A DNA stretch of 64,000 nucleotides, taken from NCBI RefSeq assembly GCF_020595125.1, contig NZ_JACNMS010000003.1, positions 496,001 through 560,000 of the forward strand, in the 5' to 3' direction. The translations under genes were made by a program, and so were the position numbers. Positions 5,251-48,222 of this stretch are shown one piece after another (position 1 is the stretch's first letter; every line of letters starts with the position of its first letter). The notes beneath the pieces are model-generated. The model saw only the letters and a list, made by a program, of their open reading frames with translations. It searched no databases and was not told the origin of the DNA. This stretch comes from Jeotgalibacillus aurantiacus (GTDB taxonomy: Bacteria > Bacillota > Bacilli > Bacillales > Jeotgalibacillaceae).

Positions 5251-5368
5251 AGGTTCGCAGGATTTTGGCGGAGGTTCACAGGATTTTGCGGAAGTTTCGC
5301 AAAATAAACCGAGTCGTTCGCAATATGATGTGATCAGTTCGCAAAATATCATGCATGGTTCTCAGAAT
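5251..5368. repeat. 21-nt-period degenerate array A (6 units)
   Basis: Cores of the form GTTCGCAAAAT recur at 5253, 5274, about 5295, 5316, 5337 and 5358, an exact 21-nt step. About 10-11 nt of each unit are conserved and the remainder is variable. The array lies between the potABCD terminator and the antiporter gene. The core is nearly identical to array F near 48.1 kb. Confidence 0.8.
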
Positions 5369-5493
5369 TATATCCATAGACCTATCGAGAAATGATTCAT
5401 TCACGCACGAATCTGAGTCATAACTTATAAAATCAACAAGGTTTTACTATGTTAATAAGTGGTAAACACTTTTTAAATAAAGGAGGAATCCTC

Positions 5494-6678
5494 ATGGATC
5501 CGGTTCAAATTATCCTGCTTTTATTGATAGGGTATATTATTTTCACTGCTGATAAACGAAGTCAGGTATTTCCAAGGCCGCCGGTACTTGCAGGCATCGG
5601 AATTATATTGGCCTTTATTCCGTTTTTTGAAGGGCTGATGCTTTCGGAAACCGCACTTTATGAAATCATTTTACCCGCACTTTTATTTATTTCAGCTTAT
5701 AAATATTCAGTTGCTGCACTGAAGAAAAATGCGTTTGTGATCGGACTGTTAAGTACAGTCAGTCTGATTCTGATGGTGCTGATTTTAGGTGGATTGATAT
5801 TCTGGCTCGCAGGATTATTTATAGAAATGCCGTTTTTACATGCATTGCTGATTTCAGCCATTTTAACACCGACTGATCCTGTTTCCGTTACATCGATCCT
5901 GCATAAATCAATGGATAACGAAAAGGTTGGAGATATTGTAGAAGGGGAGTCGCTGATTAATGATGGAACGAGCTATGTGATTTTTGCAACACTCCTCACA
6001 CTTGTAACGGAAAATGACTCTTTTTCCATAGGTGCATTCTCAGGAGAATTTCTTTACGTCTCATTGGGCGGCTCGTTAATCGGTATTGTGTGCGGTTGGG
6101 TTGTCAGCCGCGCTGTGCATTTCACACACCACCAGGAGTATCAGGTCATGTTGAGCATCGTGATGGCATACGGTATTTTCTATCTGGCTGAAGCGTTCGG
6201 TATTTCAGGTGTTTTGGCGACCGTTGCAGCAGGCCTTATGCTGTCGTGGGAGTTTGGAAGAATTAACAGAGAAGACCATTACAGGGAATCGCTTGATCAT
6301 TTCTGGGATGTTGTAGAGCCCACTCTATTATCACTCGTATTTTTGTTAATCGGTTTTACATCAGTCAGTTACATAAATTTAGAGCTTCTGATCCCGGCGG
6401 TTGGGATTTTCATCTTGTCTTTGATCGTGCGGACATCTGTAGTGGTTGGTACGATTTCACTGATTCCGTCCGGCAAAAGAACGGTGACGGGAAAAGAATC
6501 CTTTCTCATTTCGTTCGCCGGTGTAAAAGGAACAATGTCAGTGGTCCTCCTGTTGCTGCTAGAGGCTTCCGGAACAGATGGGATCGAAATGCTTACGGCG
6601 CTTGCCTTTATGGCGCTGATGCTATCTTTATTTATACAAAGTTTCGGGGTTTATCCGTTGGCGAGGAAATTGAAATAA
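5494..6678 (+). CDS. CPA1-type Na+/H+ antiporter (NhaP-like)
   Basis: Cation:proton antiporter, 394 aa, about 11-12 hydrophobic segments. Family motifs are TPTDPVSVTSIL (ion-binding Asp) and GESLINDGTSYVIF in the middle of the protein, and VKGTMSVVLLLLL near the C-terminus. It would exchange Na+ (or K+) for protons across the membrane in pH and salt homeostasis. The ATG at 5494 is chosen because AAAGGAGG is 8 nt upstream; an in-frame ATG at 5449 lacks a ribosome site. No long cytoplasmic C-terminal domain is present. It is transcribed alone and followed by a terminator. Confidence 0.88.
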   Translation: MDPVQIILLLLIGYIIFTADKRSQVFPRPPVLAGIGIILAFIPFFEGLMLSETALYEIILPALLFISAYKYSVAALKKNAFVIGLLSTVSLILMVLILGGLIFWLAGLFIEMPFLHALLISAILTPTDPVSVTSILHKSMDNEKVGDIVEGESLINDGTSYVIFATLLTLVTENDSFSIGAFSGEFLYVSLGGSLIGIVCGWVVSRAVHFTHHQEYQVMLSIVMAYGIFYLAEAFGISGVLATVAAGLMLSWEFGRINREDHYRESLDHFWDVVEPTLLSLVFLLIGFTSVSYINLELLIPAVGIFILSLIVRTSVVVGTISLIPSGKRTVTGKESFLISFAGVKGTMSVVLLLLLEASGTDGIEMLTALAFMALMLSLFIQSFGVYPLARKLK

Positions 6679-6690
6679 TGATTGGAAGAG

Positions 6691-6720
6691 ACCGGGGCTG
6701 AAAATAGCGCCGGTTTTTGA
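6691..6720 (+). terminator. Terminator after antiporter gene
   Basis: Stem ACCGGGGCT / AGCGCCGGT (one mismatch) with the loop GAAAAT, followed by TTTTGATTTTTT. Confidence 0.75.
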
Positions 6721-7060
6721 TTTTTTAAAAGTGATGTCATGTCTGGAGTAGGCTAAATATCACTGAACTGGCAAACTTTCTGTGGAACTGACGAATTCCG
6801 CTTCTAACCTCACGAACTCGGGTGCAAAGCTGACGAACTTAATGTCTAACCTCACGAACCTTATATTCTTGAGGCAACATGTTTTTTAAAAGTGATGTCA
6901 TGTCTGGAGTAGGCCAAATATCACTGAACTGGCAAACTTTCTGAGGAACTGACGAATTCCGCTTCTAACCTCACGAACTCCAACACTAACCTGACGAATT
7001 CAGCAACGAACCTCACAAATTACACCGCCAACCTCACAAACCCAAATTCTTTCCCAAAAT
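6721..7060. repeat. 21-nt-period degenerate array B with 99-nt duplication
   Basis: Cores CTGACGAAYT or CTCACGAACT start at 6768, 6788, 6809, 6830 and 6851. They recur at 6929, 6949, 6970, 6991, 7012 and 7033, almost always with a 21-nt step. A 99-nt block (6721-6819) is repeated at 6882-6980 with two mismatches, so the second half arose by segmental duplication. On the reverse strand the core reads AGTTCGTGAGG, related to arrays A and F. No coding potential is seen in this 450-nt gap. Confidence 0.8.
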
Positions 7061-7088
7061 CAGTTGCCAATTTCAAGAAATAAGTATA

Positions 7089-7114
7089 TAGTACATTACA
7101 ACAGTAATGCACTA
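7089..7114. promoter_or_regulatory. Probable GntR-family operator
   Basis: Inverted repeat TAGTACATTA / TAATGCACTA (9 of 10 matches, 6-nt spacer) ends 22 nt before the GntR start codon. Position and symmetry suggest autoregulation by the adjacent YtrA-like repressor. Confidence 0.55.
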
Positions 7115-7136
7115 GAAAAAGGAAGGTGGTGACCTT

Positions 7137-7520
7137 ATGCTGAATCCGGACAGCGTAAAACCGATTTATGTTCAAATTGCCGAATGGCTTGAAACAGAAA
7201 TTCTTCAGGAGCGGTTTAAAGCAGATGAAAAAATGTATTCCCAGTATCAGCTGGCAGATCAATTCAACATCAACCCTGCAACAGCCGCAAAAGGACTGAC
7301 CATTTTAGCTGACGCAGGCATTTTATATAAAAAAAGGGGACTCGGTATGTTTGTGACAGAACAGGCAGCAGAACAAATTCGACACAGAAGAATCAACGAA
7401 ACATTAACAGCACTCGTTTCTGAAATTGTTGAAGAAGCATCGCACTTAAATGTTGGAGAACAGGAGTTAATTCGTATGATTCAGCAGGAGGGAAAACGCC
7501 GGAAAGGGGCAGCGTTATGA
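7137..7520 (+). CDS. GntR-family regulator, YtrA subfamily
   Basis: Short transcription factor of 127 aa. An N-terminal winged helix-turn-helix (about residues 10-75, with YSQYQLADQFNINPATAAKGL) is followed by only a short helical tail, the layout of the YtrA subfamily. Such proteins typically repress the ABC transporter operon they head. Here the ATPase gene overlaps its stop by 4 nt (ATGA), and an inverted repeat sits upstream. The ribosome site is AAGGAAGGTGG. The ligand is unknown. Confidence 0.85.
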   Translation: MLNPDSVKPIYVQIAEWLETEILQERFKADEKMYSQYQLADQFNINPATAAKGLTILADAGILYKKRGLGMFVTEQAAEQIRHRRINETLTALVSEIVEEASHLNVGEQELIRMIQQEGKRRKGAAL

Positions 7521-8422
7521 GTTTGATTGAATGTCGTCATGCAGCTAAGAAATACAGAGGCGGTAGAGGTTTAATAGATGCTGATTTTTCGATTCGTGAA
7601 CATACGATCACCGGTGTAGTCGGACGCAACGGTGCAGGTAAAACAACACTTCTTAAAATGCTTGCCGGTTATCTCAAACCAACTGACGGGGAAGTGAAAG
7701 TGTTCGGAGAGAAGCCGTTTAACAGTTTGAAGGTTTCTGCTAACAGCATGTATTTGGATGAGCATACTGTGTATTCAGATGCCATGCCGATTCGTGAACT
7801 TCTGTATCATCACAGCAAATTTTATGCGAACTGGGACCAGAAGCTGGCGGAGGAACTGATTTCCTATTTTGCACTGCCTCTAACGGCGACGCAGGCAGGA
7901 CTCTCTAAAGGTCAGAAAAACACATTACATGGTGTGTTGGGTCTTGCGGCAAGATGCCCGCTTACTATTTTTGATGAGCCGACAACCGGGATGGATGCCT
8001 CTGTGAGAAAGGATTTCTTAAGGGCTCTTTTAAAGGACTACCTGGCCCATCCAAGAACCATGCTGATCTCCAGTCATCACCTTGATGAAATCGAAGACCT
8101 GCTCGAAGATCTTCTTTTGATTGATCAGGGGAAAACGATTTTGCATCTTCCTGTTGAAGAAGTGAAAGAATATGCTGTTGCTGTTGCAGGACCGGAATCA
8201 GCAGTTAATGTGTGGATTCAAAACCAGACTGTCATTGCAAAAAAAGAAGAAATGGCAGGAATGATCACAGCAATTGTCAAAAATGATTTCACCGCTGCCG
8301 AAAAAGCCACAGCATCTGGATTAAGATTTTCCCAGGTATCGGCCAGTGATATTTGCATCTACCTGACAAACCGCGATAAAGGAGGGATCGATGATGTCTT
8401 TAACAAACGTCAGTACAGCTGA
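7517..8422 (+). CDS. ABC transporter ATP-binding protein
   Basis: ATPase subunit of 301 aa. Walker A GRNGAGKTT is at residues 36-44, the signature is a variant LSKGQKNTL, and Walker B is LTIFDEPTTGMD with switch His in SSHHLDEIED. The C-terminal ~70 residues form an accessory region, as in exporter ATPases of the YtrB/BcrA type. It is translationally coupled to the GntR gene, and the next gene begins inside its 3' end. It is likely an export or resistance transporter. The substrate is not predictable. Confidence 0.85.
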   Translation: MSLIECRHAAKKYRGGRGLIDADFSIREHTITGVVGRNGAGKTTLLKMLAGYLKPTDGEVKVFGEKPFNSLKVSANSMYLDEHTVYSDAMPIRELLYHHSKFYANWDQKLAEELISYFALPLTATQAGLSKGQKNTLHGVLGLAARCPLTIFDEPTTGMDASVRKDFLRALLKDYLAHPRTMLISSHHLDEIEDLLEDLLLIDQGKTILHLPVEEVKEYAVAVAGPESAVNVWIQNQTVIAKKEEMAGMITAIVKNDFTAAEKATASGLRFSQVSASDICIYLTNRDKGGIDDVFNKRQYS

Positions 8423-9137
8423 GGTGATTAAAAAGCAGTTTGTCTTTAAGCTATCAACGTATAAAGATTTCTGGAGAAGTTTATTGATCGTGCAGTTGAT
8501 TGGGCTCGTATTTTCCTCCGTTGCAAATACCGGAGGAAGTATGATGAGTGATTACTATTCCGTCAATATCTCAACCTATTCCATAAATGTCGTGTTTTTC
8601 TTCACATTATTCTGGGCAGCCATTACGGCATTCCTTATAGCATCAAGAAGCTATCGATATGAAGATTTTTCATTTATCACAAACCGTCTGACCAGCTCTA
8701 TTTCCAGTGCGCTTTTCATTGTCACTGTCACGTTTACTGCGGCAGTTTTTACAGTCTTAAGCTCTTATGTGATTTTTATGGTCATGAAGATTGTTGCGGA
8801 TTCAGATACTCTTCCAGGTACAACTGTAATCGGAGGGTTTGGTGAGCAGACCGTTACTTTTATCGGAATCTTTGGCTATTTGCTGCTCATTGCTTCTGCC
8901 GGTTACCTGCTTGGAAATCTCGTGCAGATCCATCGTGCCTTTATTATTTTAATCCCGATTTTATTTGTATTACCGGGAATGATGACCGTCAGATTCCCTG
9001 TCATTAATTATATTTTTGAATTTTATTTTCAGGAATCGTCAGTGCTTTTATTTGCGGTAAAGATGCTCCTGACTGCAACTGTCTTTTTCTTATTAGCGGT
9101 CCTGGGTCTACGGAGAGAGGACGTGAGAGAATGGTAG
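8394..9137 (+). CDS. ABC exporter membrane subunit (putative)
   Basis: Integral membrane protein of about 247 aa with six hydrophobic segments, lying directly after an ABC ATPase and overlapping it by about 29 nt. AAAGGAGGG precedes a double ATG (8391 and 8394); the second has better spacing. The sequence matches no permease family I can name, so the role rests on topology and context. It overlaps the next gene by 7 nt. Confidence 0.7.
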   Translation: MSLTNVSTAEVIKKQFVFKLSTYKDFWRSLLIVQLIGLVFSSVANTGGSMMSDYYSVNISTYSINVVFFFTLFWAAITAFLIASRSYRYEDFSFITNRLTSSISSALFIVTVTFTAAVFTVLSSYVIFMVMKIVADSDTLPGTTVIGGFGEQTVTFIGIFGYLLLIASAGYLLGNLVQIHRAFIILIPILFVLPGMMTVRFPVINYIFEFYFQESSVLLFAVKMLLTATVFFLLAVLGLRREDVREW

Positions 9138-9850
9138 AATTCATCACAATTATACCTGTCATACTATTTGCTTGTTTACTTTATTTTCTTGTGAAAAGAT
9201 TTAAAAAACCAAGAGTTGGAGTAAGTCGTATCCCCGTAAAGTATATGCTCGGATCATATGCACTGATTTTAATCATAACCATGATCTTCTATTACGCGAG
9301 TGAAGGAACTGAGTCATCAGCTCAAACATACAATTCCCTTCATGTAGATGAAATGCAAAACTCGACATTACAGGAACAGGCCATGAACAGAAACTTTGAG
9401 AAAATTGATGAGAAATACTTCAAGGGACAGGAAAGGATTGAGTTGCAAACAGAGACATTGGAGCTTAAAGATTCAACTGGGATTTATACTTCTCACAATC
9501 ACACCATTATTATCACAGAAGAATCCGGACTGGATGCGGAGATACTAATTGACACCTATGCAACTCCTTTCTTAGTAAATGGAGTTGATGTCTCAGAAGA
9601 CTTTTGGAAAAGTGAATTCACTTACTCACAGGGAACAATGATTCTGAAAATCCCTGAACAGTCTCACATTGATTTAGAGTACGCTCAATTCACCCCATCA
9701 ATCGTCAATGAACAATTCATGGATAGCGACCCGCATATATTATCCAATATGAACTTCAGAGAAGGCCTAACAATTTACCACCTTCAAATTCCGGAAAGTC
9801 TGGAACTGAAATACGACGAAAACGATCCAATTTATCAATTTGAGCAATAA
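9131..9850 (+). CDS. Membrane-anchored protein of unknown function
   Basis: 239 aa. Two hydrophobic segments (about residues 3-20 and 37-54) precede a largely hydrophilic domain predicted outside the cell, with alternating beta-like stretches and acidic patches. I recognise no domain. It is the fourth gene of the GntR-ABC unit and overlaps the permease by 7 nt, so it probably works with that transporter, perhaps as an extracellular accessory or sensor. No terminator is obvious at its end. Confidence 0.65.
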   Translation: MVEFITIIPVILFACLLYFLVKRFKKPRVGVSRIPVKYMLGSYALILIITMIFYYASEGTESSAQTYNSLHVDEMQNSTLQEQAMNRNFEKIDEKYFKGQERIELQTETLELKDSTGIYTSHNHTIIITEESGLDAEILIDTYATPFLVNGVDVSEDFWKSEFTYSQGTMILKIPEQSHIDLEYAQFTPSIVNEQFMDSDPHILSNMNFREGLTIYHLQIPESLELKYDENDPIYQFEQ

Positions 9851-9943
9851 AAATCTAATACATCATTCAACTGAAGAACATCCAGTTTAATTTTTGAACT
9901 AAAAGTTATTCGGAATATTAGATTTTGATTGAAGTGTTCCCAA

Positions 9944-10058
9944 GGTCAGGAGGCCCCCGAAGACTCCTACGGCAGAGGAGCGACAGGTGAGACAGCGTAG
10001 CGCAAAGCGCTAGCTGGCTCACCGCGCGGCCGTGGAAAGCGAAGGGGGCCTCCTGACC
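9944..10058. repeat. Dispersed intergenic repeat, copy E2
   Basis: Core as in E1 (GACAGGTGAGACAGCG ... GCTGGCTCACCGCGCGGCC). It is bounded by a perfect 15-bp inverted repeat, GGTCAGGAGGCCCCC at 9944-9958 and its complement at 10044-10058. The arm sequence differs from that of other copies although it still pairs within this copy. It lies just upstream of the metY promoter. Confidence 0.85.
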
Positions 10059-10113
10059 AATTTTCTAAACAGAAATAAATTAAAAACCAATAAATAAAAT
10101 ATTCAGAAAAAGG

Positions 10114-10142
10114 TTGACTTCTGTTTCCAACCGCTCTATAAT
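10114..10142 (+). promoter_or_regulatory. Sigma-A promoter of metYX
   Basis: TTGACT (10114-10119), 17-nt spacer, TATAAT (10137-10142). It lies about 50 nt upstream of the S-box aptamer. Confidence 0.85.
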
Positions 10143-10192
10143 CCTCAACAAGAGATTAACATCAATGCATACCAAAACCATAACTTAATAAA

Positions 10193-10347
10193 CTCTTATC
10201 CAGAGTGGCGGAGGGACTAGGCCCTGCGATGCCCGGCAACCAACGAGTCAGCCTTGACTTGGAAAGGTGCTAATTCCTACAGATCGGACTGATCTGAAAG
10301 ATAAGAGGAGGATCAAAACCCTCTTCTTATGAAGGGGGTTTTTCTTT
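10193..10347 (+). ncRNA. SAM riboswitch (S-box) with terminator
   Basis: The aptamer spans 10193-10307. Closing stem CTCTTATC / GATAAGAG, then AGAGTGGCGGAGGGAC, GCCCGGCAACC and the GGAAAGGTGCTAATTCC hairpin match the S-box class. It is followed by an intrinsic terminator at 10317-10347 (AACCCTCTTC / GAAGGGGGTT, then T-run). The P1 3' strand and following AGGAGG can pair with the terminator's left side as an antiterminator. With SAM bound, transcription of metYX should stop. Confidence 0.95.
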
Positions 10348-10419
10348 TCCCTCTTCTCCTTTATCCCTTTACCGCAGCCACTCGACAACTTATTCAACCA
10401 CTAAAGGAGAGATTTGATC

Positions 10420-11721
10420 ATGACAAACGAAAACCCGCAGTACAATATTGAAACGTTATTATTACACGGTGCTACTGAAGCGGATCCAACGACTGGTTCA
10501 CGTGCGATTCCTGTTTATCAGACAACGTCGTATGTGTTTGACAGTGCTGAGCATGCGCAGAAGCTGTTTTCTTTAGAAGAGGCAGGCAATATTTATACGC
10601 GTATCGGAAATCCGACGGTTGCTGCGTTTGAGAACAGGATTGCTCTTTTAGAAGGCGGAGTGGGGGCTGTTGCTGTTTCGTCCGGAATGGCTGCGATCAC
10701 CTATGCAGTGTTGAATCTGGCGAGTGCAGGTGATGATATTGTCGCAGCTACGAACTTATACGGTGGAACCTATAATTTATTTGCGCAAACGTTGCCCCGT
10801 TATGGCGTCAATGTAACGTTTGTTGATGTATCGGATCCTGAAAATGTCCGAAAAGCCATTGGTCCGAAAACGAAGGCAGTGTTTGCTGAAGTGATTGGAA
10901 ATCCGAGCCTGCATGTGCTTGATACGGAAGCGGTAGCGAAGGTGGCTCATGAAGAAGGGGTTCCGCTTATTGTGGACAGCACGTTTGCGACTCCTTATTT
11001 GAATAAACCATTTGAGCATGGGGCCGATATTGTTGTTCACTCGGCAACGAAATGGATCGGTGGTCATGGTACGACAATCGGTGGTGTTGTGGTGGATGCC
11101 GGGAAGTTTAATTATGATAACGGCCGTTTCCCGGATTTTACAACGCCGGACCCAAGCTATAACGGACTGCGTTTTGTTGATTTGGAGGAAGCGGCTTTTA
11201 TTGCTAAGCTTCGGGTCAACCTGCTGCGTGATACCGGAGCGTGCCTGAGTCCGCAAAATGCATTCTATTTATTACAGGGGCTTGAAACGTTGCATTTACG
11301 CCTCGAACGACATGTTGAAAACGCTCAGAAGGTCGCTGACTATCTTGCAGCGCATCCTTCCGTAGATTGGGTTCAGTACCCTGGACTCGAAAATCACCCT
11401 TCACATGAGCTGGCGAAAAAATATTTCCCTAAAGGTCCAGGCTCAATCATTGTGTTCGGGATTAAAGGCGGACGTGAGGCAGGAAGAAAAGTCATCGACA
11501 ACACAAAGCTTTGGTCCCATGTAGCCAATGTTGGAGATGCGAAATCACTGATCATTCATCCGGCTACAACCACACACGCCCAGCTTAGAGGGGCAGATCT
11601 TGAAGCTGCCGGCGTCAAAGAGGAGCAGATTCGACTTTCAGTGGGAATCGAATCAGTGGAAGATCTCATCAATGATTTAAATCAGGCGATTGAGAAATCA
11701 GCAGTTCCTGCACATTCATAA
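10420..11721 (+). CDS. metY: O-acetylhomoserine sulfhydrylase MetY
   Basis: PLP enzyme of 433 aa that makes homocysteine from O-acetylhomoserine and sulfide (direct sulfhydrylation), cytosolic. PLP-lysine motif HSATKWIGGHG lies near residue 210, with SSGMAAI and YTRIGNPT as in Cys/Met-metabolism enzymes. The ATG at 10420 follows AAAGGAGA by 9 nt; an upstream in-frame TTG is less likely. It stands downstream of the SAM riboswitch and is followed at once by metX, which supplies its substrate. Confidence 0.95.
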   Translation: MTNENPQYNIETLLLHGATEADPTTGSRAIPVYQTTSYVFDSAEHAQKLFSLEEAGNIYTRIGNPTVAAFENRIALLEGGVGAVAVSSGMAAITYAVLNLASAGDDIVAATNLYGGTYNLFAQTLPRYGVNVTFVDVSDPENVRKAIGPKTKAVFAEVIGNPSLHVLDTEAVAKVAHEEGVPLIVDSTFATPYLNKPFEHGADIVVHSATKWIGGHGTTIGGVVVDAGKFNYDNGRFPDFTTPDPSYNGLRFVDLEEAAFIAKLRVNLLRDTGACLSPQNAFYLLQGLETLHLRLERHVENAQKVADYLAAHPSVDWVQYPGLENHPSHELAKKYFPKGPGSIIVFGIKGGREAGRKVIDNTKLWSHVANVGDAKSLIIHPATTTHAQLRGADLEAAGVKEEQIRLSVGIESVEDLINDLNQAIEKSAVPAHS

Positions 11722-11738
11722 TGGAGGAGGAATCAGGA

Positions 11739-12812: not shown

Positions 12813-12870
12813 GCAGTCCGGCTGCCTCTTTCTTTTAACTATAAAACAGAGTAAACAGGGAGGAATTATG

Positions 12871-16483: not shown

Positions 16484-16606
16484 CAAAAATGTCCAAGCTT
16501 GGGTGCTAAGTGACCAAATAGCGAAGGAAAGTGACCAAGCCGGGGCGGAATGTGTCCAAATGACTTGCGAAAGTGACCAAATCAGCCGAAAAAGTGACCA
16601 AGCTCC
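16484..16606. repeat. 21-nt-period degenerate array C (6 units)
   Basis: Cores AGTGACCAAAT (first one ATGTCCAAG) align at 16491, 16512, 16533, 16554, 16575 and 16596, an exact 21-nt step. It lies between convergent genes (the amidinohydrolase and the 50-aa protein). Confidence 0.8.
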
Positions 16607-16625
16607 GCCTGCCTGCGCTTTTCTT

Positions 16626-16923
16626 GTCTAGCTCCACCGGGCAGGGACTAGCAAACTTCCCGTCCTCTCCTTCGATAAGTCAACATCAGCTCACTGCGTT
16701 CACCGTGTTTCCTTTATCTTCGTCGAGGCCGGTCCAGTTTGTACGTCCCTAAACGCCCGCTTCTGCTTTTCTATGTCTAGCTCCACCGGGCAGGGACTAG
16801 CAAACTTCCCGTCCTCTCGTTCGATAAGTCAACATCGGTTCACTTCGTTCACCGTGTTTCCTTTATCTTCGTCGAGGCCGGTCCAGTTTGTACGTCCCTA
16901 AACGCCCGCTTCTGCTTTTCTAG
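16626..16923. repeat. Tandem 149-bp repeat (copy E3)
   Basis: Two near-identical tandem copies, 16626-16774 and 16775-16923, each running GTCTAGCTCCACCGGGCAGG ... CGTCCCTAAACGCCCGC. They differ at only a few positions. The same module occurs inside E5 at about 33342-33490. The second copy reaches the stop codon of the small minus-strand gene. Confidence 0.85.
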
Positions 16924-17072
16924 GTCGCTGGCTGATCCGGCCCTTCCAGTTTCTTATCTTTTATCACTCCTGCATTTCTTTCTTTCCGGTCAACGGTGCC
17001 TTCTTCGTACATGCGCTGGATTTGTTCTTCAGCGAATGATTCTTCGATTTGTGTTTTCTTTTTATCGTTCAT
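16920..17072 (-). CDS. Small hydrophilic protein, unknown function
   Basis: 50 aa, highly charged, no membrane segment, predicted helical (TQIEESFAEEQIQRMYEEG). The ATG at 17072 follows AAGGAGGCGATTTATC on the minus strand, a good ribosome site. The frame is open further upstream but without another site. I do not recognise a family. Its 3' end abuts the tandem repeat E3. Confidence 0.6.
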   Translation of the reverse strand: MNDKKKTQIEESFAEEQIQRMYEEGTVDRKERNAGVIKDKKLEGPDQPAT

Positions 17073-32609: not shown

Positions 32610-32679
32610 GTGTTACATGGTATTTAGATGCTTGTCTATAAATTGCTGAAGGTGGTAGGGTATAGGTCAAATGACACGA

Positions 32680-32796
32680 TTTTTCGAACAAACCTGAAAT
32701 TCTTACGAACGTGTCGTATAGTCCTCCGATCCAGGGCGCAAATCCTGTGAACCATCAGCAACATCCCACGAACCTCAGCCGAAATCCTGCTAACCA
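32680..32796. repeat. 21-nt-period degenerate array D (6 units)
   Basis: Cores such as TACGAACG, TGTGAACC and CACGAACC align at 32683, 32704, 32725, 32746, 32767 and 32788, an exact 21-nt step. The reverse complement GGTTCACAGGATT of one unit is identical to a unit of array A. It sits between the convergent oligopeptide operon and mscL. Confidence 0.78.
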
Positions 32797-32838
32797 GCGC
32801 CTGCTGAAGCGAAGGACGGCTACTGCCCGATTTATAAA

Positions 32839-33314: not shown

Positions 33315-33579
33315 GTGCCTGGTCATTCCTTCGCTTTCCGCTGTCTAGCTCCGTCGGGCAGGGACTAGCAAACTTCCCGTCCCCTCGTCCGATAAGTCAA
33401 CATCAGCTCACTGCGTTCGCTGTGTTTCCTTTATCTCCGTCGGGTCCAGTCCAGTTTGTACGTCCCTAAACGCCCGCCTCCGCTTTTCTATGGCCGCGCG
33501 GTGAGCCAGCTAGTGCTCCGCACTACGCTGTCTCACCTGTCGCTTCTCTGCCGCAGGAGTCTCCGGAATGACCAGGCAC
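33315..33579. repeat. Dispersed intergenic repeat, full copy E5
   Basis: Perfect 15-bp outer arms GTGCCTGGTCATTCC (33315-33329) and complement (33565-33579). Inside are a GTCTAGCTCCGTCGGGCAGG ... CGTCCCTAAACGCCCGC module (as in E3) and the inverted core module GGCCGCGCGGTGAGCC ... CTGTCTCACCTGTCGC (as in E1/E2). It lies between mscL and the alpha/beta-hydrolase gene. The rest of that gap shows nothing I can support. Confidence 0.85.
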
Positions 33580-41554: not shown

Positions 41555-41559
41555 TAGAT

Positions 41560-41594
41560 AAAGAAGCCGGGATGATATTCCGGCTTCTTTTTTT
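41560..41594 (+). terminator. Terminator after desaturase gene
   Basis: AAAGAAGCCGG / CCGGCTTCTTT perfect stem then T-run. Confidence 0.92.
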
Positions 41595-41641
41595 AGGTTT
41601 TTATCTGAATTTGGATTGCTTGTGGGGGAGTGTGAAGCGGT

Positions 41642-41852
41642 CGACAGAAATTAAGCTTGTATCGACAGAAATGTAGCGTGTAACGTCAATAAACCGTGGT
41701 CTACCAACAGAAATGAAGTGTCAACCGACAGAAATGCTGATGCAGATGAATTGATCGACAGAAATGTAGCTTGTATCAACAGAAATATAGCGTATAATGC
41801 CAAAAAATCGGGGTCTACCAACAGAAAATGGAGCGTGAATCCGCACAAATGT
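41642..41852. repeat. 21-nt-period degenerate array E, duplicated
   Basis: Cores CGACAGAAAT, CAACAGAAAT or CGTCAATAAA align at 41642, 41663, 41684, 41705 and 41726 (21-nt steps). After a 30-nt step they recur at 41756, 41777, 41798 and 41819. The second set is a diverged copy of the first, offset 114 nt. It lies between the convergent desaturase and GNAT genes. Open frames across it on the minus strand have no ribosome sites. Confidence 0.8.
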
Positions 41853-41882
41853 TGATGCAGGTTGAGCGATCAACATTTGTGC
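41843..41882. repeat. Hairpin at end of array E
   Basis: GCACAAATGTTGAT / ATCAACATTTGTGC, 14-bp perfect inverted repeat with 12-nt loop. Without a T-run, its role as a terminator for the minus-strand gene is uncertain. Confidence 0.55.
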
Positions 41883-41951
41883 ATTGTTTAAAGAATAAAA
41901 TGTAAGCAAACGTTATGAAAGCACTTCGTTTGCTCACTCATAGATAAAACG

Positions 41952-42761
41952 TCAGCTCAGCGGAAAGTCAAAATAATCCTGGGCATGGTAAACCTTGAAT
42001 CCACATGATTCATAAAGCTTCAAGGGACCTTTATTCTCAGCCTCCACCTCAAGATGCACCTCAACGTTTTCCTGCTGAAGCTGGCTCAGGACAAGAAGCA
42101 GCGCATTTCGGCCAATCCCTCGTCCTCTCAAATCAGAAGAAACGACAAATCCGTAAATCCACTTTTGACCATCGTTTGAATGGATTCTGATCTTCCCTGC
42201 AGGTTTCCCATTCCATTCAATGATATAAGTGATGGTGGAAGGGTCGTTGCGTTCTGCGTTCAGAAATTGTTCAGCGTCCTCCACCGGCACGAAAAAGCCC
42301 TTCGCATCGAGCTTGATTTGGAATTGACGATCTTTTTCTTCAGAGCGGCGGATCGACACTGCTTCAGAAGCAGCAGGAAGCGGCTGTGATTCCCATTTCA
42401 TCTGGTATTCCGTCATTTTATAAACCGCTTTTACTGCCTGGATAAATGCCTGCCCGGATTCTGATTGAGCCGGTGTGTTCAACAGCATTGTTTTGATGCC
42501 CATCTCAGGTACCGCATCAATTGCTTCTTTGAACAAAGTTGAAAAAAGACCCTGTCTCCTGTAGTCGGGGTGAACCATTCCACAAACTTCACCCACAGAG
42601 CCGAAATAATAAACACCCAGATAGGCAATCAGTTCATCACTTATAAATTGATAAAACATCTTAACACCGTCACCTGTCTGAATGGTGTCTTCGTTCAGTT
42701 TTAATTGAATTCCATCCGTTTTCTCACAAAGCGTTTTCAGCTCAGAAATTTTCTCTAACAT
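41952..42761 (-). CDS. GNAT-family N-acetyltransferase
   Basis: About 269 aa with two GNAT-like halves: CGMVHPDYRRQGLFSTLFKEA (acetyl-CoA loop, around residue 70) and FVVSSDLRGRGIGRNALLLVL (around residue 205). The C-terminal YESCGFKVYHAQDYF is typical. Acceptor substrate unknown. The start is ambiguous: the ATG at 42761 has weak TAGGGAT upstream, while the ATG at 42782 has none. Single gene. Confidence 0.82.
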   Translation of the reverse strand: MLEKISELKTLCEKTDGIQLKLNEDTIQTGDGVKMFYQFISDELIAYLGVYYFGSVGEVCGMVHPDYRRQGLFSTLFKEAIDAVPEMGIKTMLLNTPAQSESGQAFIQAVKAVYKMTEYQMKWESQPLPAASEAVSIRRSEEKDRQFQIKLDAKGFFVPVEDAEQFLNAERNDPSTITYIIEWNGKPAGKIRIHSNDGQKWIYGFVVSSDLRGRGIGRNALLLVLSQLQQENVEVHLEVEAENKGPLKLYESCGFKVYHAQDYFDFPLS

Positions 42762-42845
42762 AACGATCCCTACTTTACTCATAATGATGATTGATTCTTC
42801 TATCAGAATAGCTTAAAAAGATAAATTCCACTATGAATCATTCAT

Positions 42846-42886
42846 AAAAAAACTGGAGACGAACGCAATGCGCCATCATCTCCAGC
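42846..42886 (-). terminator. Terminator of BCCT gene
   Basis: On the minus strand CTGGAGA / TCTCCAG with an inner GC-rich extension, followed by T7. Confidence 0.75.
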
Positions 42887-42898
42887 TTTATCATCTAT

Positions 42899-44440
42899 TT
42901 ACTCACCACTTCTCTTTTTCGCTTTTCGGATCGGAGGAGCAGGGAACTCCTTTCGTAAAAGGCTGAAGAGTGTATAAACCATCAGAATAAGGATAATGGT
43001 AAATGGCAGTGCTGACACAAGTGAGGCCGTCTGCAGTGCTTCGAGTCCGTTCTCGCCGGCCACAAGAAGTACGAGGGTAATCGCTCCAATTAAAATACCC
43101 CAAATGATGCGGACGATCAAAGGAGGGTTCAGGCCTCCAGATGTTGTCATACTGCTGATAATGTATGTGGCAGAATCCGCAGATGTAATAAGGAAAGTAA
43201 AAATCAGCGAAATAGCCAGTATTGACAGGACCAATGAAAGTGGGAGCTCATTAAAAGTCACGAATAAAGCACTCGTTATATCATTGTTTACTGCTTCGGC
43301 AATATTTGTTCCCTGAAATAAGTCAAGGTGCAGCGCAGTTCCGCCAAAGACTGCAATCCACAGAATGGCAATAACCGGAGGAACAATTAACACGCCGACA
43401 ATAAACTCACGAATTGTACGGCCTTTTGATACACGGGCAATAAAGGCTCCGACAAATGGAGACCAGGCGATGGCCCATGCCCAGTAGAAAATGGTCCAGT
43501 CATTCACCCACGTACCACCCTGATAGGGCTGCAGACGCAAGCTGTAACGAACGAAATTTGTAAGATAATCTCCAAGACCCAAAACAAATGTTTCAAGAAT
43601 AAAGATTGTTGGACCAGCGAAAAACACAAACAGCATTAACAGTAATGCGACACCCAGATTGACATTACTGAGCCATTTGATCCCGCGGTCGATCCCTGTG
43701 GTAGTGGAGAAAATAAAGAGTGCAGTAAGGACCACCATAATAATAATTTGCGTAGTTCCGTTATTCGGAACATCAAATACGCTGTTCAGTCCTCCGTTGA
43801 TTTGAAGGACACCGAGTCCGACCGAGGTAGCGACACCCATAACAGTAGCGATGACCGCCAGGATATCAATTGTCTGATTCAGAGGTTTTTTGTAGGAGCG
43901 TTCTTTGATCATTGGTGAAAGACTGGTTGAGATGAGCCCATTCTCTTTTCTTCGGAACTGAAAATAAGCAATAATCAAACCTACAATGGCAAACACAGAC
44001 CACTGACTGATACCCCAGTGAAAAAAGGAGTATGCCATAGCGAGTCTGGCTCCTTGTTCAGTCAAAGGTTCTGTTGATGCTTCAGGAGAAGTGAAAAAGT
44101 GGCTCATCGGTTCGGCGATTCCCCAGAATACGAGGCCGACACCGAATCCTGCAGAAAACAGCATTCCGATCCACGTGAAGAATGGATATTCAGGACGATC
44201 ATCATCCCCGCCAAGTCTGACCCTTCCGTATCGGGTCAAAGCTAAAAACAGCAAAAATAAAACAAAAAAGAATACCGCCAATAAGTAAAGCCATCCGAAT
44301 GATTCCGTTGTGAAACCGAACGCAGCATTCGCCCCTGCTGAAAACTGTGCAGGAAGGAATGCTCCAATCAGCACTAACACCGTTATGATGGCAGCTGATA
44401 CATAAAAAACAAGTCCAAGTGATTTCTTTTCTTTCTTCAT
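42899..44440 (-). CDS. BCCT-family transporter (betaine/choline type)
   Basis: 513 aa with 12 hydrophobic segments. The BCCT signature region MAYSFFHWGISQWSVFA and the tryptophan-rich WTIFYWAWAIAWSPFVG segment are visible. It imports glycine betaine, choline, carnitine or related solutes with Na+ for osmoprotection. The ATG at 44440 follows AAAGGAGAC; the frame extends upstream without a site. The short C-terminal tail is Lys-rich, as in osmo-regulated BetP/OpuD relatives. Confidence 0.92.
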   Translation of the reverse strand: MKKEKKSLGLVFYVSAAIITVLVLIGAFLPAQFSAGANAAFGFTTESFGWLYLLAVFFFVLFLLFLALTRYGRVRLGGDDDRPEYPFFTWIGMLFSAGFGVGLVFWGIAEPMSHFFTSPEASTEPLTEQGARLAMAYSFFHWGISQWSVFAIVGLIIAYFQFRRKENGLISTSLSPMIKERSYKKPLNQTIDILAVIATVMGVATSVGLGVLQINGGLNSVFDVPNNGTTQIIIMVVLTALFIFSTTTGIDRGIKWLSNVNLGVALLLMLFVFFAGPTIFILETFVLGLGDYLTNFVRYSLRLQPYQGGTWVNDWTIFYWAWAIAWSPFVGAFIARVSKGRTIREFIVGVLIVPPVIAILWIAVFGGTALHLDLFQGTNIAEAVNNDITSALFVTFNELPLSLVLSILAISLIFTFLITSADSATYIISSMTTSGGLNPPLIVRIIWGILIGAITLVLLVAGENGLEALQTASLVSALPFTIILILMVYTLFSLLRKEFPAPPIRKAKKRSGE

Positions 44441-44581
44441 GTTGTCTCCTTTCTTGGTTAAATGTTTACCTGTTCTAGTCCTTATTTCCCTGTTGGCTCT
44501 CACATTAAACGGAAAAACTGTGTTTGAACTGGAGAGAATCAGTCAATAATAAACTATCAAAATTCAAACGGAGAAGGTGCG

Positions 44582-45193
44582 ATGATGAGTGTTCCCTTTT
44601 TTAAACAGTTCAGCCGTCCAAAAGGTGCAATGGGAAAAGTGGCGGGATACATTATGTCAAAGGAAAACAAAAAGCTGAATCGCTGGTCTGCAGGCTGTCT
44701 TGATGTGCAAACCGGTGAAAGAATTCTTGAAATCGGTTATGGACCAGGTGCGTGTATGAAGGAAATCATTAAAAAGAATGTCATTATTGACGGTATTGAT
44801 GCATCCGCAGCGATGGCAGAACAGGCCGGAAAAAGAATGGAGCAATCAATTGAGAGTGGGAAGGCGAGAGTCATGCAGGGGAAGGTTGAACACATTCATC
44901 TGCCGGAAGAATACTATGACAAAATACTCTCCGTTAACAATTTCACCATATGGGAAGATCCGGATCAGGGGCTTAAAAAGCTGTATCACGCCTTAAAAGA
45001 AAATGGCCGGATCGTGATTACGATGCAGCCCCGTGAAGATACAGCCAGCCCGAATTTAACCCGTATGATGGGCAATGATCTTTATCGCCGACTGGAAAAG
45101 GCCGGTTTTGAACATGTGACTCTTTCCTACAGAAGGTTCTGGCCGGAGCTTGCTGTAGCGGCTGTTGCATTTAAAAAGAAGAGAGATCATTAA
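44582..45193 (+). CDS. Class I SAM-dependent methyltransferase
   Basis: 203 aa. SAM-binding GERILEIGYGPG is around residues 43-54, followed by GIDASAAMAEQAGKR and the later VNNFTIWEDPDQGLKKLY, as in UbiE/Methyltransf_11 enzymes. Cytosolic, substrate unknown. GGAGAAGGTG precedes a double ATG (44582 and 44585). Its 3' end overlaps the convergent kinase gene by 23 nt. Confidence 0.85.
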   Translation: MMSVPFFKQFSRPKGAMGKVAGYIMSKENKKLNRWSAGCLDVQTGERILEIGYGPGACMKEIIKKNVIIDGIDASAAMAEQAGKRMEQSIESGKARVMQGKVEHIHLPEEYYDKILSVNNFTIWEDPDQGLKKLYHALKENGRIVITMQPREDTASPNLTRMMGNDLYRRLEKAGFEHVTLSYRRFWPELAVAAVAFKKKRDH

Positions 45194-45677
45194 GCCATTT
45201 TTCAGTTTCGGCAGGTGAACGGTGGATGATGATCCGGGCATCTGTTTTGTTCAGACGACCCATGACAACAGGGGCGTGGCGGTCATTGTAAAACCAGATC
45301 CATTTCAAAAAATCCAGGTCCAGTTTTTCCTTGCAGCCCTCTGTCATATCCGGACGGGAACGGTTGGCGTACTGTAACCTTCTTTTTATGGCTCGGCTCA
45401 CACAAATAAAACGGGAGTAGTGCAGGAAAATAACGGTGTCGCACATTTCAAGACGCTGTTCCATGGTGCTGTTGAAGTTTCCATCAATGATCCACTGTTC
45501 CTGCATCATAATATCCTGTGTTTTATGACGGAACTCGTCCCGGTCACTCTGCTCCCAGCCCGGTTTCCAGAATAACGCGTCAAGATGATACACCGGGATG
45601 CTCAAAATGTCTGAGAGCCTTCTGGCCATGGTCGATTTCCCGGCACCGCCGGATCCGATAATCAGGATTTTTTTCAT
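45171..45677 (-). CDS. P-loop AAA/adenylate-kinase-like protein
   Basis: 168 aa. P-loop GSGGAGKST is at residues 8-16, LDALFWKPGW follows, and WIIDGNFNSTMEQRL is characteristic of the 'DNA topology modulation protein FlaR-like' NTPase group related to adenylate/shikimate kinases. Function unknown. Ribosome site AAAGGAGG on the minus strand. Convergent overlap with the methyltransferase gene. Confidence 0.82.
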   Translation of the reverse strand: MKKILIIGSGGAGKSTMARRLSDILSIPVYHLDALFWKPGWEQSDRDEFRHKTQDIMMQEQWIIDGNFNSTMEQRLEMCDTVIFLHYSRFICVSRAIKRRLQYANRSRPDMTEGCKEKLDLDFLKWIWFYNDRHAPVVMGRLNKTDARIIIHRSPAETEKWLNDLSSF

Positions 45678-45776
45678 AGTAAAAACCTCCTTTAATAAAA
45701 AATATAAAAAGTGCTGGTCAGATGCAGCGCTTTCAATTATACTAAAAAAGAAGTAAATGGAAAGGGTGTGTTGAAT

Positions 45777-45857
45777 ATGACAAACGACGTAAATATGATC
45801 ATTGTCTTAAGCGTACACAACCCGTCTGACCACTTGAGGTCTTCCATTCAGGAATAG
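45777..45857 (+). CDS. Candidate 26-aa leader peptide
   Basis: Small open frame MTNDVNMIIVLSVHN... of 26 codons, preceded by GAAAGGGTGTG, then a terminator hairpin and the rsgA gene. No codon run typical of amino-acid attenuators is present. It may be a real small protein or leader, or chance. Confidence 0.35.
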   Translation: MTNDVNMIIVLSVHNPSDHLRSSIQE

Positions 45858-45869
45858 GATTCTTCTGTT

Positions 45870-45940
45870 ATTTTTCAAATCAGAAGTCCGCGGGTTTGTG
45901 TACATTCACAAATTCGCGGGCTTTTTTATATTTGAAAAAT
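45870..45940 (+). promoter_or_regulatory. Nested hairpin/terminator in rsgA leader
   Basis: Inner terminator-like stem CCGCGGGTTTGTG / CACAAATTCGCGG (two wobbles) with T6. It is enclosed by outer arms ATTTTTCAAAT / ATTTGAAAAAT, perfect over 11 bp. The outer 3' arm abuts the rsgA ribosome site AGGAGG, so folding could affect both termination and translation. Confidence 0.6.
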
Positions 45941-45954
45941 CAGGAGGAATTACA

Positions 45955-47010
45955 TTGACAACTTTATTATCAAAAATGGGCTGGAATCAGGACTGGGAAA
46001 ATAAAATATCTAAAACAGAACTGACACCCGGCAGAATTATTACAGAGCACAAACACATTTACCGTATTCAAACGGAACAAGGATTATTAATCGGTGAAGT
46101 ATCAGGGAAATTCCGACACCAGGCCATTTCACGAGAGGACTATCCTGCTGTTGGGGACTGGGTGATGGCAGATATCCGCCCGGAAGAAGGAAAAGCGACC
46201 ATCCATGAAATCCTGCCGAGAATATCGAAATTCTCCCGAAAGGCACCCGGAGATACGACTGAAGAACAAATAGTGGCTGTAAATATCGATACCGTCTTTC
46301 TGGTCATGGCATTAAATCAGGACTTTAATTTGAGACGCCTTGAACGTTATCTTCTTTCAACATGGGAAAGTGGCGCAAATCCGGTTGTGATTTTGTCAAA
46401 AGCTGATTTGTGTTTGGATCCGGGTGCGAAGCTGGCTGAGGCTGAATCGGTTGCCATGGGTGTACCAATCACAATCACAAGTGCGAAAAATGGCACAGGC
46501 ATTGAAGAAGTGAAATCCTACATCAAAGAGGGGATGACGATCGCTGTCATGGGATCATCCGGTGTCGGCAAGTCGTCCATCATCAATTCACTGCTTGGAG
46601 AAGAGCGGATGCTGACCCATGAAATCAGAGAAGACGATGGAAAAGGAAAGCATACGACAACACACAGAGAACTGCTATTACTTCCGGAACAGGGTGTAAT
46701 TATTGATACGCCAGGGATGAGAGAGCTTCAACTCTGGGAATCAGAAAGTGGTCTGTCCCACAGCTTTCAAGATATTGAGCAAATTGCTGAACAATGTCAG
46801 TTCAGGGATTGCCGTCACGAATCAGAACCCGGCTGCGCTATTTCCCGGGCAATAAATAATGGCGAAATAGATCAGTCCCGATTCGACAGCTATGTCAAAC
46901 TGCAGAGAGAGCTTGCTTACCTGGAACGTAAAACGAATAAAAAAGAACAGCTCCTGGAGAAAAAGAAATGGAAGAAAATTTCCCAGCAGCAAAAAGCGCA
47001 CTACCGTTAA
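45955..47010 (+). CDS. rsgA: Ribosome small-subunit GTPase RsgA family
   Basis: 351 aa circularly permuted GTPase acting in 30S maturation. An OB fold (about 20-100) is followed by permuted G motifs: LSKADL, P-loop GSSGVGKSS, HTTTHRELL, DTPGMREL. A C-terminal zinc motif of Cys-x4-Cys-x-His-x5-Cys type lies in CQFRDCRHESEPGC. The start is TTG at 45955, with AGGAGG 7 nt upstream. The usual prpC-prkC neighbours are absent, so this may be a second, solitary RsgA paralogue. Confidence 0.88.
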   Translation: MTTLLSKMGWNQDWENKISKTELTPGRIITEHKHIYRIQTEQGLLIGEVSGKFRHQAISREDYPAVGDWVMADIRPEEGKATIHEILPRISKFSRKAPGDTTEEQIVAVNIDTVFLVMALNQDFNLRRLERYLLSTWESGANPVVILSKADLCLDPGAKLAEAESVAMGVPITITSAKNGTGIEEVKSYIKEGMTIAVMGSSGVGKSSIINSLLGEERMLTHEIREDDGKGKHTTTHRELLLLPEQGVIIDTPGMRELQLWESESGLSHSFQDIEQIAEQCQFRDCRHESEPGCAISRAINNGEIDQSRFDSYVKLQRELAYLERKTNKKEQLLEKKKWKKISQQQKAHYR

Positions 47011-47035
47011 AAATCCGGCTTCGGCCGGATTTTTA
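47008..47035 (+). terminator. Terminator of rsgA
   Basis: AAATCCGGC / GCCGGATTT stem with loop TTCG, then T-run; starts at the stop codon. Confidence 0.9.
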
Positions 47036-47057
47036 CTATTTAAGCATCTATCATTTT

Positions 47058-47176
47058 GAGAGTGTAGGCGACTCGTACAGCCCCGACAAGCATAAGTCAA
47101 AGATGAAAAGAGGGCCGACCTTCGCTTTCGTTCATCTTTGGCGTATGACCTCGAGTTGCTAGTCGCCGCAGTTGGA
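47058..47176. repeat. Dispersed repeat module 2, copy E6
   Basis: AGGCGACTCGTACAGCCCCG ... GACCTCGAGTTGCTAGTCGCC, a diverged copy of the second half of E1 (1170-1290). It forms a long imperfect hairpin with GTCAAAGATGAAA / TCATCTTTGGC inside. Confidence 0.75.
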
Positions 47177-47228
47177 AAATGAAAGCATAGAATTTCTTTT
47201 GAAAATAATTATGTGATTTAATACCAGA

Positions 47229-47341
47229 GTGCCGGGGACATCCGAAGACTCCTGTGGCGGAAAGGGTCAGGTGAAACCGACTGTGCGAAGCGCAGGTGGG
47301 TTCACCGCCCGGCCACGGAAAGCGTAGGATGTCCCCGGCAC
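47229..47341. repeat. Dispersed intergenic repeat, copy E7
   Basis: Perfect 15-bp outer arms GTGCCGGGGACATCC (47229-47243) and complement (47327-47341). They enclose a diverged core with CAGGTGAAACCGACTGTGCG and GTGGGTTCACCGCCCGGCC. Arm sequence differs from E5 at five positions, each matched by a change in the partner arm. Confidence 0.85.
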
Positions 47342-47463
47342 GGTTTTATATGGTTAAACATCTAAAGACAGATGAAGCCATCTATAAACACATACATCCT
47401 CATGAAATGACTATTGCGGTGCTATACTGATATTATCAATTTCAAATATCAGGAGGACCTGAG

Positions 47464-48093
47464 ATGAAATCAATGTTTGAAAAGGCGGTCGGAAACTCAT
47501 TTAACCGGATGCACCCTGAGCTTCAAAAGAAATACGCCCTCCATAGCGAGTCCGGCTATATGGTCATCACCGAAGGAACCATGCACGAAATAAAAGGAGG
47601 ATCTTTACTAGTCAGAAAAGTATCGATTCTTGGCACGAAGCTTAATTTCGCTTTTCCGGAACGCGGAGACGAAATTCCTTTTTATATGGAGAATAAAGCA
47701 TATAAAGATAAGCACGGTAAAGAAAGCATGACGTGGAAAAGAACCTTTCGATTTCCCGGAACTGTCCGCTACTTCCACGATGAGATGAAGGAAGGAGAGC
47801 ACCCCGATACGGTCGATAATTTAACAGACCAATGGGGAATTGTCCGTCTTCCACTAGACCTGAAAGTAACGAAAACAGGTGGCATGCTGCTGACCTCAAG
47901 AACCATGACAGTTCATCTGTTCAATACAATAATTCAAATCCCATCTTTTTTAGGTGTAAAAGCAACCGTAATTGAAGAATTCAACAAAGAAAAAGACCTG
48001 TTCGACGTTCACATTCATATTTATCAGCCCTTGTTTGGAACGATTCTTTCTTACAAAGGGACTGTGAAGATGAGATTTCCGGAAGTGGATTGA
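47464..48093 (+). CDS. DUF4166 domain protein
   Basis: 209 aa of the DUF4166 family. The N-terminal FEKAVGNSFNRMHPELQKKY and the beta-rich body with WKRTFRFPGTVRYFHDEM and LFGTILSYKGTVKM are recognisable. No membrane segment or signal, so cytosolic. Function unknown. AGGAGG precedes the ATG. Single gene flanked by repeats on both sides (E7 and array F). Confidence 0.8.
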   Translation: MKSMFEKAVGNSFNRMHPELQKKYALHSESGYMVITEGTMHEIKGGSLLVRKVSILGTKLNFAFPERGDEIPFYMENKAYKDKHGKESMTWKRTFRFPGTVRYFHDEMKEGEHPDTVDNLTDQWGIVRLPLDLKVTKTGGMLLTSRTMTVHLFNTIIQIPSFLGVKATVIEEFNKEKDLFDVHIHIYQPLFGTILSYKGTVKMRFPEVD

Positions 48094-48101
48094 GAGTGGT
48101 G

Positions 48102-48222
48102 GCAGGTTCGTAAAATAATGGACAGGGTTCGCAGAATGTGAGCTGATGTTCGCGGAATTTCAAGGATGTTTCGCAGGATTTTTGGCTCGTTTCACAAAAT
48201 CCCGCATCACTTTCGGAGAATT
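48102..48222. repeat. 21-nt-period degenerate array F (6 units)
   Basis: Cores GTTCGTAAAAT, GTTCGCAGAAT, GTTCGCGGAAT, TTTCGCAGGAT, TTTCACAAAAT and TTTCGGAGAAT begin at 48106, 48127, 48148, about 48169, about 48190 and about 48211: six units at 21 nt. It begins 9 nt after the DUF4166 stop, between convergent genes. Minus-strand frames translate as 7-residue repeats but lack a ribosome site. Confidence 0.82.

Follow-up and report, generated by a model that had tools for sequence, protein, structure and literature searches.

What are the short repeats that recur every 21 nt between genes of Jeotgalibacillus aurantiacus, and what might they do? The 64-kb window (the whole stretch of DNA analysed here, on contig C3 of a 3.5-Mb source genome in 19 contigs, coded G000) holds six such arrays, A to F, each a row of short cores separated by variable spacers. 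An earlier note made from the letters of the window had suggested that the cores would face one side of the helix and might serve a nucleoid or architectural protein, or else form a transcript-end element. Beyond that note, we found that the cores fall into classes, that the arrays are limited to one clade of these salt-loving bacteria and that they are excluded from the terminus side of the chromosome, nearly so in G000. The best explanation, to which we give a probability of roughly 0.5, is that the arrays are phased sites for DNA-binding proteins that mark the origin side of the chromosome and serve its organisation.

Regions were called where identity at lag 21 was at least 50% across 84 bases. 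In the window this detector returned seven regions, which cover all six arrays (array B is two regions), while in 100 order-2 Markov simulations the mean count was 0.05 regions and no simulation had more than one. With 105-base windows, lag 21 gave five regions, lag 42 gave three and all other lags from 10 to 44 gave none. These results confirm the six arrays and their strict 21-nt period as first read, and the six units in A, C, D and F are borne out as well; array E is longer than had been noted, its real span being 41578-41862. The elements of the window are as follows, with class labels explained below.

5248..5373, plus strand: array A, class I (F1), core GTTCGCA(R)(R)AT, six units of 21 bp
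5376..5385, minus strand: end unit of array A, ATAGGTCTAT, like end units elsewhere in class I; missed by the crude end-unit pattern
6721..7016, plus strand: 161-bp tandem duplication holding array B plus flank
6785..6868, plus strand: array B, first copy, class I (F2), core CT(G/C)ACGAAC
6946..7050, plus strand: array B, second copy, class I (F2)
16486..16611, plus strand: array C, class F3, core AGTGACCAAAT, six units
32661..32678, plus strand: end unit (leader) of array D, TATAGGTCAAATGACACG
32676..32801, minus strand: array D, class I (F1), CGAAC sense on the plus strand, six units
41578..41862, plus strand: array E, class F4, core CGACAGAAAT, about seven units with an internal duplication; without a counterpart at that place in the close relative G004
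48099..48224, plus strand: array F, class I (F1), six units
48221..48239, minus strand: end unit of array F, CATAGGTCAATTGGTACAA

Self-similarity was then measured at every lag from 12 to 63 bases in 864 kb of G000, made up of the window and 40 further stretches. Of the regions found at lag 21, 71 were intergenic and 11 coding; intergenic counts were 43 at lag 42, 20 at lag 63 and 0-3 at each remaining lag. This is the genome-wide excess that the earlier note had named beforehand as its test. A region counts as intergenic here if gene coverage is at most half, with genes taken from our own codon-usage caller, whose looser and tightened thresholds gave 44 and 47 intergenic regions, respectively, over the identical 464 kb. 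Within the 71 regions identity was 0.479 at lag 21 compared with 0.257-0.296 at lags 19, 20, 22 and 23, indicating that the phase is strict. The argument that the period does not come from recent slippage also holds, as spacers vary between units and diverge faster than cores, and units are not alike in full.

Grouped by eye from a consensus table, the 71 regions form at least seven classes, six of which occur at several loci: F1 (GTTCGCARRAT, 17 regions), F2 (CTSACGAAC, 14), F4 (CGACAGAAAT and kin, 12), F6 (GAAGGAAT, 10), F3 (AGTGACCAAAT, 7), F5 (AACGATACAAA, 5) and F7 (two adjacent regions at a single locus). The other four regions are in part low-complexity, and tandem array copies are counted separately in these tallies. 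Position weight matrix runs for F3, F5, F6 and F7 drifted to low-complexity matches under lax thresholds and were not used. The array cores are asymmetric, and those of F2 vary as CT(G/C)AC(G/A)AA(C/T). Because F1 and F2 share one register and often the end unit TAGGTC-N5-TTACACT, they were grouped as class I. A crude form of this end unit, TAGkNC, was found within 60 nt before the first core in 28/58 class-I-like arrays and after the last core in 6/58, a set that includes a few arrays from other classes. F1 spacers are little alike between loci, with 0.01-0.31 bits per column outside the core and first flanking bases. Whole arrays plus flank are tandemly duplicated with a period of about 160-230 bp at four places (window 6721-7016, where array B is duplicated whole at 161 bp; L012:8802-9341; L022:16857-17331; L004:5682-6218). 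One 21-bp geometry serves several unrelated core sequences. Cores once thought specific to their locus are instead specific to their class, and the class of each window core, again grouped by eye, recurs elsewhere in the genome. The proposed relatedness of the cores, allowing for strand, applies to arrays A, D and F, which belong to one class with D on the opposite strand, and array B has the end unit of that class, whereas C and E belong to other classes.

The arrays are unevenly distributed along the chromosome. In G000, dnaA lies at 980 kb on contig C1, and on C2 the GC skew turns from plus to minus somewhere in the interval 320-360 kb, so we take C2 to hold the terminus. The unbiased set consists of 20 grid stretches (14 off C2 and 6 on C2), and the remaining C2 stretches are likewise on a grid; some further C1, C3 and C8 stretches, and also the stretches of G004, were picked where class-I matches were already known, and the window itself was picked by the finding. 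On the grid, 38 lag-21 regions fall in the 14 stretches off C2 and 3 in 15 C2 stretches. Counted by intergenic regions longer than 150 bp, 23/100 off C2 carry an array compared with 2/90 on C2 (p = 1.8e-5), or with 1/30 when C2 is limited to its six grid stretches (p = 0.015). The full biased set gives 68 regions in 26 off-C2 stretches and 3 in 15 on C2, or 49/195 and 2/90 intergenic regions (p = 2.5e-7). As a control, an unrelated 150-bp intergenic repeat matched six times on C2, three of these matches being pieces of 47-70 bp, and five times in the rest of the 864 kb, which indicates that the depletion on C2 is specific to the arrays. This repeat (GTCTAGCTCCACCGGGCAGGG...), with its 11 matches in the 864 kb, also lies in the window at 16617-16926 and 33342-33483 and had no match in a plasmid collection.

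The same placement was found in G007, a complete chromosome with dnaA at 0.9 kb. Its 23 stretches were placed at roughly even steps once class-I matches were known, and the gene caller covered little of two of them, L053 and L135. We found 22 lag-21 regions in the 12 stretches within 760 kb of dnaA and none in the 11 farther out, corresponding to 19/81 and 0/62 intergenic regions with an array (p = 8e-6); 12 empty stretches lie between 850 and 2,870 kb. Near dnaA, lag 20 gives six regions and other neighbouring lags at most one, and over the whole G007 scan lag 20 gives six intergenic regions and lags other than 21 otherwise at most three. Since the lag scan needs no core, G007 repeats the origin-side result irrespective of class. 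When class I was mapped by exact pattern matches (28 loci) and GGTCAC with one mismatch allowed (19 loci), an arc from 1,243 to 2,479 kb stayed empty, and an arc that large arose in 0 of 200,000 random placements of 47 points (4 and 75 of 200,000 for the single classes); one-mismatch class-I matches, among the matches listed, extend up to about 505 kb. In G009, where class I has 68 matches, dnaA is at 13 kb on the 1.03-Mb C1, and the matches on this contig span 29-514 kb with none farther on; one match is on the 0.99-Mb C2, and the remainder are on smaller contigs. The skew of G009 C2 starts as plus and is minus at 500 kb, which is terminus-like. Separately, in G000 and G007 many array-rich stretches look, by eye, less biased in gene strand than the terminus half.

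To what extent are the arrays shared? The comparison set was 11 Jeotgalibacillus congeners (G001-G011), 12 species with G000. Arrays occur in seven (G000, G004, G006, G007, G008, G009 and G011), which are monophyletic on a noc gene tree with support of 1.0, and are lacking in the other five (G001, G002, G003, G005 and G010). A class-I pair pattern with at most one mismatch gave 127 matches in G007, 68 in G009, 63 in G006, 12 in G008 and 6 in G011, and 0 in each of the five array-less species, with 0 also for a control pattern. The G000 form of the pattern gave 74 matches in G000, 58 in G004, 2 in G006 and a single match, in one genome, across 49 other genomes of the order. A second pattern, GGTCACAT, with a core related to F3, was found in 6/6 array species searched (G004 left out) and in 0/5 array-less species. 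When a relaxed class-I pattern was run on 397 genomes of the order, more than one match was found solely in the seven array species; G001 had one match, as did each of 14/385 non-genus genomes, fewer than for the control pattern. Judged by pattern matches, class I beyond the genus is at background level, with at most one match per genome among the 385.

The pattern-free scan points the same way, with G001 assessed by pattern alone. In 15 stretches of G002, G003, G005 and G010, two lag-21 regions were left after gene calling, both resembling coding heptads, and a short G005 contig outside that count (L050) has one more coding-looking region. In twenty stretches from the same order, lag 21 picked out 8 regions, coding ones counted, lag 42 also picked out 8, and the other lags picked out 0-6, so that arrays are probably not as dense there. 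Other classes outside the genus could escape these patterns.

Sequence divergence between G000 and G004 shows that the cores are constrained. For class I, with 12/32 array groups alignable throughout, 59/813 core sites and 131/740 spacer sites differ; the TTC/AT columns differ at 12/369 and the outer spacer at 90/370, and the flanks, mostly genes, at 624/6,869. Across all classes, columns conserved inside the G000 array differ at 52/989 sites (5.3%) compared with 185/990 (18.7%) for variable columns, and conserved columns are less diverged in 17/19 arrays and equal in the other two. These 19 are the usable arrays among the 71; 39 had no match in the G004 sequence compared and 13 were partly aligned, in some cases because G004 has lost the array or has another in its place. 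Between array F and the corresponding G004 array (L118), 1.6% of sites differ, with 10.7% over the whole aligned stretch, reflecting either recent exchange or strong constraint.

At a given place the arrays also turn over. Five arrays of other species have both neighbouring genes in G000 stretches, and as one pair is separated in G000, four regions were compared. Between the antiporter gene and gntR, J. terrae has a class-I array with GTCGAAC cores, G000 has the doubled CTGACGAAC array (array B) and J. salarius has none; J. alimentarius, for which the antiporter side is available, is like J. terrae. The antiporter gene next to array A, used as a query, had relatives in four Jeotgalibacillus species and no others. 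In the second region, G007 and G000 have arrays of equal orientation and different cores; in the third, the arrays of G011 and G000 are oppositely oriented; and in the fourth, G009 has an array and G000 has none. The class-I core of sister species reads TTTTTCTAMGAAC or TTTTTCTCCGAACC. From one species to another the cores change, while the period is kept and, in many cases, so is the end unit.

Candidate binding proteins were sought in the 12 species. The gene noc is present in 12/12, and Noc has palindromic sites of its own. These sites (ATTTCCCGGGAAAT, at most one mismatch) number 20-23 per array species and 7-12 per array-less species, a split that may tie the gain of arrays to altered use of Noc or may just mirror the clade. 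Also present in 12/12 species, array-less ones included, are another gene of ParB type, which we take to be spo0J, and one for an actin-like ALP_N protein. A 66-residue RacA query covering the DNA-binding domain gave 13 matches in the 12 genomes (E of 4.6e-5 to 0.0086, open frames of 249-336 aa), none of them a convincing RacA, although a very divergent RacA could escape such a search. The G000 match, the sole one read, is presumably a MerR-type regulator with a B12-binding look. Sites resembling the RacA-binding ram numbered seven in the 864 kb, all weak with two mismatches. The Rep_3 domain was found in 0/7 array species and 1/5 array-less species, with other initiator families not searched. 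From these searches, RacA, Rep_3, ALP_N and extra ParB paralogues were rejected as binders.

Known systems share some of these features. The Noc site is a 14-bp palindrome, ATTTCCCGGGAAAT, ram is a GC-rich inverted 14-bp repeat, and in plasmid iterons and ParR centromeres proteins line up head to tail on direct repeats of about 20-22 bp. Iterons and ParR centromeres sit at one place per replicon, whereas the arrays are dispersed over the chromosome and the array species lack Rep_3. The STAR elements of staphylococci have a 14-bp core, T(G/A/T)TGTTG(G/T)GGCCC(C/A), that is GC-rich, with at least 40 bp between cores (PMC3532100). Like the arrays, they are intergenic direct repeats with a short conserved core, locus-specific spacers, species-specific places and a function described as unknown (PMC3532100). 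They differ in having one core at that wide spacing where the Jeotgalibacillus arrays have several unrelated cores at a strict 21 bp, and by eye the STAR core is unlike every array class consensus. Terminus exclusion is seen for the arrays and is not mentioned for STAR in the available part of that paper (PMC3532100).

Other site sets share features of chromosomal distribution with the arrays. Noc-binding sites of Bacillus subtilis number about 70, are dispersed and are absent from the terminus region (PMC4331003). The arrays are likewise many, dispersed and off the terminus, nearly absent there in G000 rather than absent, but they are asymmetric direct-repeat arrays instead of single palindromes, and noc and its palindromes coexist with them. 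The ram sites are dense near the origin and also lie over the rest of the chromosome, and the origin-proximal ~30% of the chromosome is captured in the forespore (PMC6593407). Arrays and ram share density toward the origin; they differ in that ram is an inverted repeat and the array cores are asymmetric, in a genus with no convincing RacA. The five RefZ motifs are near-palindromic, lie on both arms, are placed relative to the origin and border the captured part (PMC6657595). They too are positioned by the origin, but the arrays are many and asymmetric. The best reading of these comparisons, which is one of analogy, is that the arrays would act like Noc, RacA or RefZ site sets without being members of them. 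Titles and abstract openings of the papers found on 21-bp intergenic repeats and on Jeotgalibacillus repeats showed no description of the arrays.

Could such dispersal and turnover reflect selfish DNA? The arrays might be interspersed non-autonomous repeats, each class with its own spreading machinery, that settle in intergenic DNA and either fail to insert near the terminus or are lost from there; their core columns would be preserved as a requirement of that machinery. The gain and loss seen when one intergenic region is compared across species (in one case with reversed orientation), the dispersal of the classes, the distinct end unit on one side (28/58 against 6/58) and the tandem duplication of whole arrays would all suit this account. 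However, constraint on the core columns of orthologous copies is not needed after insertion, F1 spacers share little between loci, the other intergenic repeat is not kept off the terminus contig, and none of the pairs examined showed a clean empty site with target duplication, leaving the account doubtful. Transposon ends were also considered and rejected: G004 is without array E, yet the junction is not clean. A local role at gene ends would have a topoisomerase or nucleoid protein act at the arrays to deal with supercoils or to stop read-through from one gene into its neighbour, and comparable roles have been proposed for BIME/REP sequences in enteric bacteria. In G000 off C2 (a biased set) and G007 within 760 kb of dnaA, arrays occur in 26/53 convergent, 36/163 tandem and 6/60 divergent intergenic regions longer than 150 bp, a preference for the 3′ sides of genes, and by eye an intrinsic terminator adjoins many of them. 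We nevertheless consider this role unlikely, since convergent regions of the terminus half carry none (0/9 on C2 and 0/6 in G007), the sequence classes are many and no clear orientation rule exists; in tandem pairs 21 class-I-like arrays run along transcription and 12 against it, by a crude motif rule and with a few other-class arrays included. The same orientation counts, together with the lack of RNA fold excess in five arrays, make the transcript-end element suggested earlier a poor fit.

Heptad-repeat peptides (21 nt is seven codons) or a structured RNA would offer another source for the period, and the variation of F2 cores does resemble third codon positions. That look was unsupported, as divergence per column forms a smooth hump with no period of three. 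Arrays A, C, D, E and F showed no RNA fold beyond shuffles on either strand (z of -1.65 to +0.91), and the window arrays had no Rfam match at the gathering score, the sole match in the window being a SAM riboswitch at 10193-10307. A coding or RNA element is therefore highly improbable. Iterons are direct repeats of two helical turns with many specificities, and the arrays recall them in both respects, so that they might be iteron-like sites for plasmid-type replication initiators, either origin remnants or traps for incoming plasmids. G057, from another genus of the order, has by eye an array of about 22 nt, ACCATTTTTGTTATA, at L082:19787-20000, the end of a 20-kb contig. Against this stand the Rep_3 counts given above within their scope, and array A had no match in phage records. 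Five viral contigs gave one exact class-I match each; three (L193, L194 and L196) have no lag-21 region, and the lag-21 regions of L195 and L197 are genes or GC-rich DNA. We regard iteron-like sites as very unlikely. As a side observation, a 256-aa frame with a DnaA-like ATPase domain occurs in G003 in six copies of equal score and may be an insertion-sequence helper.

We therefore return to phased protein sites on the origin side of the chromosome. Each array would be a row of candidate binding sites two helical turns apart, along which a sequence-specific DNA-binding protein would sit head to tail on one DNA face, presumably binding cooperatively. The existence of separate core classes on one geometry would be explained by several proteins or by a single family of differing specificities, and the set of arrays would mark the origin side of the chromosome. 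The likely role would be chromosome organisation by anchoring, condensing or keeping division off the origin-proximal part, in the manner of the Noc, RacA and RefZ sites of Bacillus subtilis. That the arrays are protein sites is probable, given the phase, the core constraint and the lack of RNA or coding signal; for a role in chromosome organisation, which is suggested by the terminus exclusion with its control repeat, we see about even odds. The one-face architectural protein site of the earlier note thus stands in so far as phase, core constraint, the lack of an orientation rule and origin-side placement fit it; the candidate tests found no binder.

Several points weigh against this explanation. 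No trans-acting protein emerged from the candidate tests, which gave negative or uninformative results, and five congeners live without arrays. Labile presence at a given locus argues that single arrays are dispensable, and core divergence in class I (7.3%) is just slightly under that of the flanks, mostly genes (9.1%). The border is not sharp, with a weak G000 array 965 kb from dnaA, and C2 of G000 is not empty, having three regions plus a GGTCAC locus at C2:868.6 kb; one-mismatch class-I matches may also lie inside the empty arc of G007. Finally, the origin-side bias could mirror where such DNA is tolerated.

A more specific form of the protein-site explanation is tentative, and we hold it possible at clearly less than even odds: a clade-specific marking system of several specificities, in which a protein family would assemble head to tail on the 21-bp arrays, with its own core per class, and by which the origin part, perhaps the part captured in the forespore, would be told from the terminus half. 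Sites and proteins would have co-evolved in such a system, so that a whole class would have switched its core between sister lineages.

New in this work are the clade limit, the origin-side placement, the column constraint, and the turnover of core, orientation and presence at four shared loci. Were the arrays selfish, they would still make up a type of repeat that combines one geometry with many sequences, and we found no name for it. If the preferred explanation is true, Jeotgalibacillus has a large set of phased sites of several specificities that defines a chromosome domain and that can be acquired within one genus, and its sister clades with and without arrays would offer a direct test of how an origin-side domain is built and the terminus avoided.

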